Origin: Bacilli bacterium
Lineage (GTDB): Bacteria > Bacillota_I > Bacilli_A > RF39 > UBA660
NCBI GenBank assembly: GCA_028685275.1
Contig: JAQUEG010000004.1
Span: forward strand, 1,813 to 14,620
DNA: 12,808 nt
Reading direction: 5' to 3'
The translations under genes and the position numbers were made by a program. Positions 3,161 through 11,527 of the stretch are shown piece after piece; position 1 is the stretch's first letter; every line of letters begins with the position of its first letter. The notes beneath the pieces were generated by a model. The model ran no database searches. It was not told the origin of the DNA and was given only the letters and a program-made list of their open reading frames with translations.

Positions 3161-3163
3161 TTA
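3161..3163 (-). other. In-frame TAA interrupting polC
   Basis: The reading is ...AAA TGG TAA AAG TTT GTT CAA TTA ATG..., with PolC homology on both sides in the same frame. One codon change separates this from an intact gene; GAA to TAA (G to T) is one option, CAA or AAA others, because this residue is not strongly conserved in the family. Confidence 0.9.
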
Positions 3164-6925: not shown

Positions 6926-8338
6926 TTATTTTATTTCTTCTATTTTTATAAAATTAGTATTACGCTCTTTATTCATTGGAAACCCACCAGTAATGATAAT
7001 ACGTCCTTCATCAGTTTCAAACTTATCTTTATATGTATTAATTGCATTATTAACTATTTCATCAGTACTATTAAACATTGGTGATAAAACTGGTTTAACA
7101 CCCCAATTTAAAGATAAACTACTTGCTACTTCTTGATTAGGAGTAACGGTAATAATTGGACATATTGGTCTAAAATTACTAACTTTACGAGCCGTATAAC
7201 CAGATATTGTTGATACTAAAATGGCATCTGCTTTTAACTTACTAGCACTACTAACCACATTATAAGCAATAATAGTCGTAATATCTTCTTTATCACCTAT
7301 TTCTTTACTATCTAATATTTTTTCATAATCTAATTCTTGTTCAATATTGGTAATTATTTTAGCCATCATTTCAATTGTTTTAATCGGATAATTACCAATG
7401 GCGGTTTCGCCACTTAACATAACAGCATCAGTATTATCAATTACAGCATTGGCAACATCACTAACTTCTGCTCTAGTTGGCATTGGAATTTCTTGCATTG
7501 ATGATAACATTTGAGTTGCCACAATACATATTTTATCTGATTTAAAGCATTTACTAGTAATTTTCTTTTGAATACCAGGTACTTGTTCAATTGGTATTTC
7601 AACTCCTAAGTCACCTCTTGCAATCATTACCCCATCACTAACTTTAATTATATTATCAATATCTTCAATCGCACTTTCATTTTCAATTTTAGCTATAATT
7701 TGAATATGTTCATTCTTTAAACCAATTAACATATCGTTAACATCTAATATATCATTAGCATTTCGAACAAAGGATAAAGCAATAAAATCAACATTATTTT
7801 TAGCCGCAAAAACAATATCATTTTTATCTGCTACTGATAAAAAATCAAGATCTAAATCAACACCGGGAATATTAACACTAGTATTATTTCTAATTGAACC
7901 ACCATTTAAGGCTTCACATTCAACATCAGTTTCCGTTACACTAATTACTTTTAATTCAATTAAACCATCATCTAATAAGATTTGATCGCCCACTTTTATG
8001 CCATTAATAAAATCAGGATAACTTACTAAAAACTTATTTATATCGGCACCATGTTTGCTAGTTAAAGTAATAGTATTACCTTTATCTAAATAAATATTTT
8101 CATATTTACAATTAACTAATCTTACTTTTGGTCCTTTAATATCCATTAAAATACCAACACTAGTTTTTAGTTCTTTATTTAAATTTCTAATGTTTTTAAT
8201 AATTCTTTCAGCAAATTCATGATCACCATGGGATAAATTAATTCTTACTACATCCATTCCGGCTTTTATCATATCTGCTAACATACCTTTACTAGTTGTT
8301 TGTGGTCCGACCGTACAAATAATTTTTGTTTTCTTCAT
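6926..8338 (-). CDS. pyk: Pyruvate kinase, short form with Lys at the K+-site position
   Basis: Converts phosphoenolpyruvate and ADP to pyruvate and ATP at the end of glycolysis. The protein has 470 residues and lacks the extra C-terminal PEP-utiliser-like domain of Bacillus pyruvate kinases. Motifs: KIICTVGP at the start, RINLSHG (32-38), DIKGPKVR (66-73), the active-site signature IIAKIENES, then ARGDLGVEIP, ATQMLSSM, TRAEVSDVANAV and DAVMLSGETA. K71 replaces the Glu that coordinates K+ in many pyruvate kinases (see findings). The start is ATG 8336-8338 (MKKTKIICTV), preceded by GAGGAGTGA (8343-8351). An in-frame ATG at 8353 overlaps the upstream gene and is less likely. The racemase TGA stop is inside this ribosome site, so the two genes are coupled. 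Closeness of dnaE and pyk is also seen in other Bacilli. Confidence 0.97.
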   Translation of the reverse strand: MKKTKIICTVGPQTTSKGMLADMIKAGMDVVRINLSHGDHEFAERIIKNIRNLNKELKTSVGILMDIKGPKVRLVNCKYENIYLDKGNTITLTSKHGADINKFLVSYPDFINGIKVGDQILLDDGLIELKVISVTETDVECEALNGGSIRNNTSVNIPGVDLDLDFLSVADKNDIVFAAKNNVDFIALSFVRNANDILDVNDMLIGLKNEHIQIIAKIENESAIEDIDNIIKVSDGVMIARGDLGVEIPIEQVPGIQKKITSKCFKSDKICIVATQMLSSMQEIPMPTRAEVSDVANAVIDNTDAVMLSGETAIGNYPIKTIEMMAKIITNIEQELDYEKILDSKEIGDKEDITTIIAYNVVSSASKLKADAILVSTISGYTARKVSNFRPICPIITVTPNQEVASSLSLNWGVKPVLSPMFNSTDEIVNNAINTYKDKFETDEGRIIITGGFPMNKERNTNFIKIEEIK

Positions 8339-8342
8339 TACT

Positions 8343-8645
8343 TCACTCCTCATTATTAGTTTCTTTTATATTTTTACCACTTAATAAAATGGTTTTCAGT
8401 GCTAAAACGGTTAAGGAATCAATAATAATATCATTTTTTATTTCATCATTTTTATTAATAATTGATAATTCAGTACACCCTAAAATAATTTTTTCGACTC
8501 CTTGTGCTACTAATGAATCAATAATTTGATGAAATGATTCTATATCAATTTCTTTACCAGCTTTAATACCATCATAAATTAATTCATCTACTTTAACTTG
8601 TTCTTCTTCGGTCGGAAGAATACATTTTATTCCATACTTATTCAT
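8343..8645 (-). CDS. Aspartate racemase, C-terminal fragment after an in-frame stop
   Basis: This is the second half of the racemase domain that begins in the upstream gene. Homology resumes directly after the TGA at 8694-8696: 16 codons (LLATKATVEHHLYEKV, 8646-8693) lead in frame into the ATG at 8643-8645. The 100 residues include ILGCTEL with C57, the second catalytic Cys of the Asp/Glu racemase family; the first Cys is in the upstream part. Half an active site is useless alone. No Shine-Dalgarno precedes the ATG. It ends on TGA (8343-8345), overlapping the pyk ribosome site. With the internal TGA read as sense, the whole protein has 650 residues. I read it as part of one gene, not a separate one. 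Confidence 0.85.
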   Translation of the reverse strand: MNKYGIKCILPTEEEQVKVDELIYDGIKAGKEIDIESFHQIIDSLVAQGVEKIILGCTELSIINKNDEIKNDIIIDSLTVLALKTILLSGKNIKETNNEE

Positions 8646-8693
8646 TACTTTTTCATATAAATGATGTTCAACCGTAGCTTTAGTTGCTAAAAG

Positions 8694-8696
8694 TCA
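8694..8696 (-). other. In-frame TGA interrupting the ligase-racemase gene
   Basis: The reading is AAA AAA GTG TGA CTT TTA GCA ACT, i.e. KKV-stop-LLAT. Aspartate racemases normally read KVGLLAT here, so the stop replaces a Gly and a single GGA to TGA change (G to T on the coding strand) explains it. UGA followed by C is a comparatively leaky stop context. Confidence 0.9.
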
Positions 8697-10295
8697 CACT
8701 TTTTTTAATTCCGGATTTTCTTTTAAAGCATAAAGAATTGTTTCCTCAATTATATTAATAATCGGAATATTAACTTTACCTTTAATTTGTTTATAAAAAG
8801 CATGAACAGTATTACAAGGAATAACAATGAAATTAGCCCCCATTTGCTCTAATTTCTTGGCATCTTCAATCATTTTTAAAGCTGGATTTTCTATCCCTTT
8901 ATACATTAAATATTGGGTTCGATCAGGAATTGTCGCATGGTTAATTACAATCATATTAACATGATCTTGATCTTTATTAGCATCTGTATTATTAATTACT
9001 AAATCCATAAAATAAGTTGTAGCCAGTGGCCCTAAACCACCTATTACCCCAACAAACTTCTCTTTTTTAATTGATTCTTTAATAATCTCATAATATTTAT
9101 AATATTTACGAATTTGATTTAACATACTAGCTTTAATATAAAAGTAACGTTTAAAATTCATATCTTTTTTATAAATTAAAGGATGACTAACTTGTTTCTT
9201 TTTAATTAAAATTTTAACTTGTTTTTTTAACTCTTGATCATGTAAATAACGAAATAAAATAAGCTTTGGTACTGCCAAAAATAAATGTTCTTTTTTCGCT
9301 ACTATTGGTTTTATTTCTTTATCATAAATATACTCATCAACAATAAACTTTGCCACATTGTAACCACTAGCAGTAACATAATAATTACTGCGCCCTAAAC
9401 GGGTATTAATTTCAAAGAATTTATATTTTCCATCACGCGGATCATATTTAATATCAAAATTAGAAAAACCAGTATATTTTACATGCTCTAAAAATCTTTT
9501 TGCTTGCGCAAAAATTTCTTCATTTACTTCATTCTTAATAGCTACATAATTACCAATCGCTCCTGGTGTATGTTCTTCTAATAATACATGTCCTAAAGCA
9601 TAAAATTTTACTTTCCCTTTTTTATCACTATAACAAGTTAAAACATACATATTAGAATCAGCGCCTGGAATATAATCTTGAATTAAAAACTTTCCCTCAT
9701 AACTAGATGTTCTTAAATTATTAAGCATTGTTTCTAATTCATTTTGATCATGAAATTTAAAACCTTTTTTCTTTCCTGGAAATTGAGCATAATGATATGC
9801 TACCCCGTCTACTGCTTTCGCTGCCACTGGATAACCAAAATTAAAATCTAATTTAGTGTTTTCTTTTACATCATAAACAAAAGTTTCGGGATGATCAATC
9901 TCTAATTCGGAACATATTTGATAAAATGAATCTTTCATCACTAATTTCTTCATTAAATTATAACTAACATATGGAATGATATAATACTTAGCAAGTTTTT
10001 TCTTATTTTGGACAATCATTTTTATATACCAATCACCGCAAGCAAAAAGAATTAATTTCTTATTACTTTTATTTTTAGCAATCGTAATTAACGTTTCAAT
10101 AAAAACATCTTTTTCTTCTAATCTTTCTTCCACGATATTTTCAATTATTTTACTATTATTAGAAGGACCCCATAAGTATTTACTTAATACAATTGATTTT
10201 ACTTGATACTCCTCATGAAAAGTACGTGCGATTGTATAAGCATTAATATCTGCTCCAATAATAACTGGCATGAATGGTTGTTCTTTAATTAGCAT
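8694..10295 (-). CDS. D-aspartate ligase (ATP-grasp, Aslfm-like) fused to aspartate racemase N-terminal half
   Basis: Residues 1-405 resemble the Enterococcus faecium D-aspartate ligase, which joins the beta-carboxyl of D-Asp to the stem-peptide Lys of peptidoglycan precursors using ATP. Landmarks, judged from memory of that family: FMPVIIGADINAY, ACGDWY (85-90), SFYQICSE, FLIQDYIPGADSNM (203-216), PGAIGNYVAI (244-253), and TGFSNFDIKYDPRDGKY with FEINTRLGRS (294-303), the ATP-grasp metal and nucleotide region. Residues 413-533 start an Asp/Glu racemase domain: VGVIGGLGPLAT, IPDRTQY and PCNTVH with the first catalytic C494. The frame ends at TGA in mid-domain. The ligase half is complete. The ATG at 10293-10295 has SD GAGGTG (10301-10306) at 5 bases. 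It follows the M23 gene by 23 bases, so they are probably co-transcribed. The amino-acid substrate is inferred from family and fusion partner. Confidence 0.88.
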   Translation of the reverse strand: MLIKEQPFMPVIIGADINAYTIARTFHEEYQVKSIVLSKYLWGPSNNSKIIENIVEERLEEKDVFIETLITIAKNKSNKKLILFACGDWYIKMIVQNKKKLAKYYIIPYVSYNLMKKLVMKDSFYQICSELEIDHPETFVYDVKENTKLDFNFGYPVAAKAVDGVAYHYAQFPGKKKGFKFHDQNELETMLNNLRTSSYEGKFLIQDYIPGADSNMYVLTCYSDKKGKVKFYALGHVLLEEHTPGAIGNYVAIKNEVNEEIFAQAKRFLEHVKYTGFSNFDIKYDPRDGKYKFFEINTRLGRSNYYVTASGYNVAKFIVDEYIYDKEIKPIVAKKEHLFLAVPKLILFRYLHDQELKKQVKILIKKKQVSHPLIYKKDMNFKRYFYIKASMLNQIRKYYKYYEIIKESIKKEKFVGVIGGLGPLATTYFMDLVINNTDANKDQDHVNMIVINHATIPDRTQYLMYKGIENPALKMIEDAKKLEQMGANFIVIPCNTVHAFYKQIKGKVNIPIINIIEETILYALKENPELKKV

Positions 10296-10318
10296 TTTTT
10301 CACCTCATTATTTTAATA

Positions 10319-11527
10319 TTAATTATATTTGTTTATGCGATTATACCAATAAGTACTTTTATTTGATGGGAAATTAACTACAGCACGAGGATTAACTAAA
10401 TGATCAACAAAAGCAGCATATGTACTATAATCTTTATAATATAAACCAGTAGCAATTGAAAGATGAAGATGAGGACCAGTAGAATTACCAGTGCTACCCA
10501 TAATTGCTAATACCGTATCTTTGGTTACTAAATCACCCTTTTTTACCTTAATGGTACCTGTTTTTAAATGTAAATATTGGGAGGTGTATTTTTTTCCATT
10601 AATATTATGATGAATAGTAATATAATTACCCATTGAACTAGTATATCCAATAACTACTACTTTCCCATTAGCAGCTGCATATATTTTAGTATTATATTTA
10701 TCCGAATTACTTAAATCAATACCAGAATGAAACTTTTTAGTTCCGTATATAGGATGAATTCGGTCACCATATTCACTAGTTACATATCCTTGTACCATTG
10801 GTCGCCAAAATCTAGTGTCAGGAGGTAATAAACGATTAGCACATACATTTATATCTTCGTTCGCACCACAACCAGCTTTTTCATACATATCAATAACTCC
10901 ACGCGCGGTTTTTATTTCATCAGCAATACTACGTTCAAATTCATATAAATTATTTTTTTCCTTATCTAAAGAATTTATTTTGGCTTTTAAATTAATTTCC
11001 TTTTGTTTTAAATCTTCTTTATGTTTTTTTAATTCAATTTTACGATTTTCATTCGCTTCAATCATATCATTCATTTCATTAATTAAATCATTATTATGTT
11101 TAGTTAATTGTTCACTAACTGACATTCGATAAATAAAATCAGTAATTGAGTCGGCTTCAAAAATAAACTCTAAATAAATGGAGTTTCCTGATGATAACTG
11201 TAAATTATTAATAGTTGCTTTAATTTCCTGATCTTTTTCGATTATGTTTTGATCTAATTCTTTAATTTCTGCCGTTTTTTGAATTATTTCATCATTAATA
11301 TTTTCAATATCAATATTAATTTGACCAATTTCATTACGAGTTTGCGTAATTCGTTGTTCCGTATTTGTTATTTGCTTTTTATTAGCTTTATCTTTCGCTT
11401 CTAATTCATTTAATTCGGCTTTTAAATCATTAATTGTTTTTGCTTCTACTTTTATATTAGACCAACTTAAAAAACAACTACTTAGTAATATTAATACAAT
11501 TATTAAATTAATTAATTTTTTTAACAT
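10319..11527 (-). CDS. PcsB/CwlO-like coiled-coil M23 peptidoglycan hydrolase
   Basis: A 402-residue exported cell-wall hydrolase. The N-terminus is a signal sequence: hydrophobic 5-17, then a lipobox-like LSSC (15-18) and also a type I site candidate VEA at 27-29, so it may be either a lipoprotein or a released protein. Residues 31-210 are long coiled coil broken by SIYLEFIFEADSITDFIYRM (116-135), the pattern in PcsB, CwlO and EnvC-type partners of the FtsEX complex. The M23 domain covers 245-385 with complete metal and catalytic residues: H267 and D271 (HSGID), H320 (YLHL), H353 and H355 (HLHL). Two Cys (C220, C229) in the linker could form a disulfide. The start is ATG 11525-11527 with AAGGG (11537-11541). 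Activation by FtsEX is inferred from architecture; ftsEX is not in the window. Confidence 0.92.
   Translation of the reverse strand: MLKKLINLIIVLILLSSCFLSWSNIKVEAKTINDLKAELNELEAKDKANKKQITNTEQRITQTRNEIGQINIDIENINDEIIQKTAEIKELDQNIIEKDQEIKATINNLQLSSGNSIYLEFIFEADSITDFIYRMSVSEQLTKHNNDLINEMNDMIEANENRKIELKKHKEDLKQKEINLKAKINSLDKEKNNLYEFERSIADEIKTARGVIDMYEKAGCGANEDINVCANRLLPPDTRFWRPMVQGYVTSEYGDRIHPIYGTKKFHSGIDLSNSDKYNTKIYAAANGKVVVIGYTSSMGNYITIHHNINGKKYTSQYLHLKTGTIKVKKGDLVTKDTVLAIMGSTGNSTGPHLHLSIATGLYYKDYSTYAAFVDHLVNPRAVVNFPSNKSTYWYNRINKYN

Follow-up and report, generated by a model that had tools for sequence, protein, structure and literature searches.

The locus raises the question of whether one bacterial gene encodes both a D-aspartate ligase and the aspartate racemase that would supply it, and whether such a gene is intact and exists beyond a single assembly. 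In the window (the whole stretch of DNA that was analyzed, 12,808 nucleotides), ligase and racemase domains share one minus-strand reading frame of 650 codons at positions 8343–10295. Our preferred reading, to which we give a probability of about 0.62, is that this frame specifies a predicted bifunctional enzyme that would make D-Asp and ligate it to the peptidoglycan stem, and that it arose by fusion of tandem ligase and racemase genes.

Domains of the fused gene and its neighborhood

Structure matches to the fused protein covered residues 5–406 and 412–641, and the racemase model matched residues 412–637. The original prediction of two activities in one continuous frame (about 1–405 and 413–650) was therefore right about the shared frame and close on the limits of the domains, but continuity did not hold for the assembly at hand, in which a TGA at codon 534 splits the frame under table 11. 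Along the minus strand, a Shine-Dalgarno-like GAGGTG read from the sequence (10301–10306) precedes the ATG at 10293–10295; the D-aspartate-ligase-type half (residues 1–402; 9090–10295), a linker (residues 403–411; 9063–9089) and the aspartate-racemase half (residues 412–650; 8346–9062) follow, and the gene ends in a TGA stop at 8343–8345. The lowest inter-domain model confidence was found at the linker (pLDDT 63 for the block 401–410).

The gene for a PcsB-like M23 peptidase (10319–11527, minus strand) lies 23 bases upstream, and the pyruvate kinase gene pyk (6926–8338, minus strand; its second in-frame ATG was chosen as the start) is directly downstream. These genes belong to a co-directional block comprising a partial gene for DNA polymerase III alpha, the PcsB-like M23 peptidase, the fused gene, pyk, polC, a G5-M23 peptidase, mraZ and rsmH, in which the identity of rsmH and the pairing of the polC pieces were assigned by eye. 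Farther along, the same contig encodes a protein with PBP dimerisation and transpeptidase domains. The window's gene neighbors were not common to L002, which carries another fusion, or to the six other loci compared.

Residues 1–402 were assigned to the ATP-grasp carboxylate-amine ligase fold on the basis of a PF02786 score over the cut-off and of fold matches. This half grouped with ligases named D-aspartate ligase by JGI, and also with a Latilactobacillus curvatus 'carboxylate--amine ligase' adjoining an amino acid racemase; the proposed D-Asp type is supported as an assignment by homology to these relatives and by their names. The same homology and names suggest D-Asp as the substrate. Genetic linkage to an aspartate racemase was seen as fusion in the window and nine other clusters, and as tandem genes in 52 of 80 loci. 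PylC, the L-lysine epsilon-amine ligase of pyrrolysine synthesis, differs in its free lysine acceptor, its low identity (12–13%) and the absence of a racemase.

Scores for the second half agreed with the claim that it is of the aspartate type: the asp_race model gave 228.1 bits (cut-off 93.1), whereas glut_race gave only 47.2 bits (cut-off 146.65), and a glutamate racemase identity was rejected on this score. The best PDB match was P. horikoshii AspR, whose Arg48, Cys82, Lys164 and Cys194 align with Arg459, Cys494, Lys578 and Cys607 of the database protein P0002. We take Cys494 and Cys607 to be the catalytic pair, and Arg459 and Lys578 to be substrate residues. Both cysteines, the arginine and the lysine are kept in 9 of 11 fused racemases and in all 65 unfused ones, which were chosen by likeness to the window's racemase. 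Residues 412–640 are predicted to form a PLP-independent aspartate racemase.

The CuyB cysteate-racemase model (NF052483) also scored over its cut-off (216.6 versus 190 bits), which would fit a fused racemase that serves another substrate (cysteate, or D-Glu for MurD) beside a ligase that adds something other than D-Asp. The genome content is compatible with such a role, as a single Asp/Glu racemase domain is encoded: the search for a separate racemase found no second domain of this kind elsewhere in the genome (~82% complete), and neither MurI nor a D-amino-acid transaminase was found there. We nevertheless regard a different substrate as quite unlikely. The glut_race score lies far below its cut-off, and the CuyB cut-off was also passed by four of the five unfused racemases scored from the vicinity of such ligases (L004, L055, L061 and L142; L143, at 185 bits, fell below), so the model does not discriminate here and cysteate racemase was dropped as a decisive label. 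Moreover, the genome is incomplete, and absence of MurI appears common in the family, since 119 of 193 family genomes contain no PF01177 match at all.

The in-frame TGA

Under table 11, the shared frame yields ORFs at 8694–10295 (533 aa) and at 8343–8645 (100 aa from the first ATG), with a single TGA between them at codon 534 (8694–8696, minus strand), within the racemase half; Lys578 and Cys607 lie beyond it. P0002 (650 aa; 7 contigs, the longest of 79,979 bases), which is known here from the protein record alone, differs from the window's protein only at codon 534 and is uninterrupted. In the alignment, codon 534 corresponds to glycine in most relatives' rows, and codes in which TGA is read as glycine or tryptophan were tested for this reason.

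Translation through the TGA as one protein by reassignment (Trp, table 4; Gly, table 25) would agree with the relatives' glycine, but the genome-wide evidence makes it highly improbable. The genome encodes RF2 (505.6 bits versus a cut-off of 370), and the RF2 gene contains a G-rich Shine-Dalgarno-like run followed after three bases by CTT TGA C, an arrangement that we take to be the canonical RF2 UGA frameshift site. In 36 sampled contigs, TGA ends 57 of 251 frames of at least 80 codons, a count of frames unfiltered for real genes; the same sample held 24 in-frame frame pairs, and its scan returned 3 tRNAs, a number uninformative about UGA-reading tRNAs. No internal TGA was present in the window's other genes, and reading TGA as Trp would extend the fused gene beyond its terminal stop and into pyk. 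Because RF2, its frameshift site and the TGA terminators all contradict it, reassignment was rejected. Thus, TGA is a true stop in this genome, as indicated by RF2 with its frameshift site, by the TGA-terminated frames and by the other window genes free of internal TGA.

The polC gene on the same contig likewise contains one in-frame stop, a TAA at 3161–3163 just before the end of the finger-domain model, after which the polC sequence resumes at once. Neither table 4 nor table 25 would explain this TAA, and a second in-frame stop hints at assembly errors or a strain mixture.

If the TGA is real, the gene would be a genuine pseudogene or a ligase-only gene, whose ligase half is made while the racemase half is lost in this strain. 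That TGA works as a stop codon in the genome, and that a sister lineage also carries a damaged racemase half, speak for such a loss. We consider it unlikely, however, given that P0002 is otherwise identical over 650 residues and has no stop, that the polC stop points to sequence error, and that conservation continues past the TGA to the end of the protein. On the strength of P0002 and the polC stop, the window's TGA is most likely an assembly error or a strain variant.

Distribution and repeated origin of the fusion

A profile search, in which scoring was confined to the 7,998 candidates with the most shared words, revealed among the best 120 of 3,180 matches at least 10 fused representatives (90%-clusters). 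Together these clusters comprise 223 member sequences, and that of P0056 accounts for 201; between fused and ligase-only proteins the score dropped from 972 to 647 bits. The nine fused representatives besides P0002 are 40–67% identical and open across both domains. These ten fused clusters establish the fusion beyond the assembly, and they show that the orthologues are not all separate genes; separate genes throughout had been named as grounds for abandoning the idea. In the search with the racemase region, the known ligase fusions among the 120 of 602 matches listed were P0002–P0007 only. The matches P0122–P0235 include many proteins of ~470–510 residues, roughly double the length of the single named Asp/Glu racemase domain that each contains.

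Of the 124 loci found, 80 were classified: 52 held the ligase followed by the racemase in tandem, 18 a ligase without a racemase, 7 a neighboring pair in divergent orientation and 2 some other arrangement, and a single locus carried a fusion. Some contigs are short, and racemases may have been missed in the ligase-only class. Across the 193 family genomes, 52 matched the query, 40 of those in the ligase half (table count), and both halves were matched in one place only in G000 and G084; loci were retrieved for 20 of the 40 ligase-half genomes, and the genus is represented by one genome. L002 and L157 denote the same contig of G084, within which L083 also lies. The ligase of G092, from the same family, is identical to that of L050, which is deposited as 'uncultured Erysipelotrichaceae bacterium'. 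Ligase-racemase fusions look rare, and they look to have arisen more than once.

Several tandem pairs were noted in other settings. On a 215 kb Subdoligranulum variabile plasmid (L142, 4908–6965), ligase and racemase lie in one frame, one TAG apart; the plasmid match H1, which appeared as one piece in tblastn, was rejected as a fusion for this reason, being two frames with one stop between them. Tandem pairs were also present at L067 (2622–4675), deposited as Candidatus Dojkabacteria (UBA5749), and at L041 (1584–3419), deposited as Bifidobacteriaceae; the L041 ligase clusters with ligases from lactobacilli plasmids.

On the ligase tree (128 rows), 6 changes of the fused label are required, at least 3 of them forced by well supported branches; the racemase tree (76 rows) requires 3, of which at least 2 are forced. 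AU tests on the racemase tree rejected a single clade of all fused proteins (p 0.00007), as well as the union of clade A (the window, P0003–P0007 and L002) with clade B (P0056, P0088 and P0107; p 0.00026); the trees were quick ones, the groups were named after inspection of the tree, and P0008 is a long branch. A single origin of the fusion is rejected, and the number of origins is probably three. Unfused ligases sit inside the fused clades of the ligase tree, P0009 and P0010 within clade A and P0236 within clade B, which counts against a simple history; they may represent losses, truncated sequences or separate genes.

Unfused relatives close to the fused proteins often have the two genes in tandem. 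Among 56 tandem pairs, 19 lie in one frame, and 14 of those have exactly one stop between the ligase and racemase frames (the identical L050 and L084 are both among the tandem pairs). At the junction of the fused proteins, a few residues separate the end of the ligase from the beginning of the racemase. Given this junction and the one-stop pairs, loss of one stop codon would be a sufficient route, and the fusion most likely formed by loss of the stop between tandem genes with the ligase first. The tandem pairs of Lachnospiraceae, Oscillospiraceae and other Clostridia MAGs (e.g. L003–L011) encode both proteins in this ligase-first order, but as two genes. In the L. curvatus plasmid pair (L143), the homologues are also adjacent, but the racemase comes first and the genes are separate; together they are ~36% identical to the query.

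The damaged racemase half of the sister lineage was found in L002 (5593–7521) and P0007, in which Ser replaces the second catalytic Cys and Ile replaces the substrate Arg, although the domain is full-length; the other 9 fused rows retain all four residues, as do the 65 unfused racemases. The two sequences come from different contigs and are one residue apart, which makes an error in a single assembly unlikely. In G084 (~80% complete), the search gave no further Asp/Glu racemase domain. Repeated fusion with a racemase half kept for a second, non-catalytic job, for example dimerising or regulating the ligase, is possible, though we hold it only tentatively. If so, fusion would serve assembly as much as D-Asp supply, and the L002/P0007 lineage would import D-Asp or ligate another amino acid.

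Predicted function and cell wall context

One contig encodes MurE, a transpeptidase and MraY (the last assigned by eye), a D-Ala-D-Ala ligase (Ddl) domain is encoded in the genome, and six transpeptidase matches, some of them fragments, were counted genome-wide. From MurE, the transpeptidases and the Ddl domain, a wall is expected; the cell is probably not wall-less, and the description of the lineage as near wall-less bacteria does not make it so.

MurE (L145) carries DNPR, the motif of mDAP-adding enzymes. S. aureus MurE has DNPA in its place, and the motif is not the sole determinant (PMC3829189). The DNPR suggests that the acceptor may differ from AslA's L-Lys; either Lys or mDAP could take this role. 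DapB, FemAB, asparagine synthase, a D-amino-acid transaminase and a second racemase of the Asp/Glu type, for example MurI, were not found in the 82% complete genome. The combination of a DNPR-type MurE with no dapB found would reflect either an assembly gap or import of the diamino acid for the wall. Of the two cross-bridges originally proposed, D-Asn is not favored, since an asparagine-synthase domain was not found in that genome, and D-Asp is the better guess.

Aslfm of Enterococcus faecium is reportedly a D-aspartate ligase of peptidoglycan precursors and is said to be unfused; likened by description rather than by sequence, it shares with the window's ligase half the predicted ATP-grasp D-aspartate ligase activity. 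In Lactococcus lactis, the genes for RacD and AslA share an operon; RacD makes D-Asp, which AslA activates as beta-aspartyl phosphate and attaches to L-Lys (PMC4155827). In some Gram-positive walls the cross-bridge is built from D-Asp side chains, whose state influences autolysis, sensitivity to lysozyme and the binding of endolysins (PMC4155827). Set beside AslA/RacD by description and not by sequence, the window is alike in the genetic linkage of both predicted activities, but has one gene instead of two and an mDAP-type MurE motif instead of the L-Lys acceptor. No fused D-aspartate ligase-racemase enzyme was found in the literature searched, outside which most subscription papers fell, and we rate the fused gene as a novel form of the already known Asl/RacD pair.

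In the proposed mechanism, the racemase half would need no cofactor and would use two cysteines to convert Asp between its L and D forms. The ligase half would activate D-Asp at the expense of ATP, by analogy with AslA in the form of beta-aspartyl phosphate, and join it to the side-chain amine of the stem's third residue, giving a side chain or bridge made of a single D-Asp. Channelling of D-Asp from one half to the other, as originally suggested, would be a hypothetical further feature. The single gene would have formed when tandem ligase-first genes, an order kept by most sampled relatives, lost the intervening stop. Both domains, fusions in several separate assemblies, conserved active-site residues, tandem relatives and more than one origin are observed, and we infer the substrate, the acceptor, the wall incorporation and the stop-codon-loss route. 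The TGA in frame, the DNPR of MurE, the damaged racemase of L002/P0007, the unfused P0009 and P0010 in clade A, and the CuyB score over the cut-off count against this proposal.

The source is an uncultured small-genome lineage known here from metagenome assemblies only, and if the TGA were real, its strain would make a ligase with a truncated racemase. A single polypeptide predicted to produce D-Asp and also to attach it offers a compact enzyme that lends itself to testing. The repeated origin of the fusion beside in-frame tandem genes would represent a natural case of gene fusion by stop-codon loss, and the L002/P0007 lineage provides a natural experiment on the purpose of the fusion.
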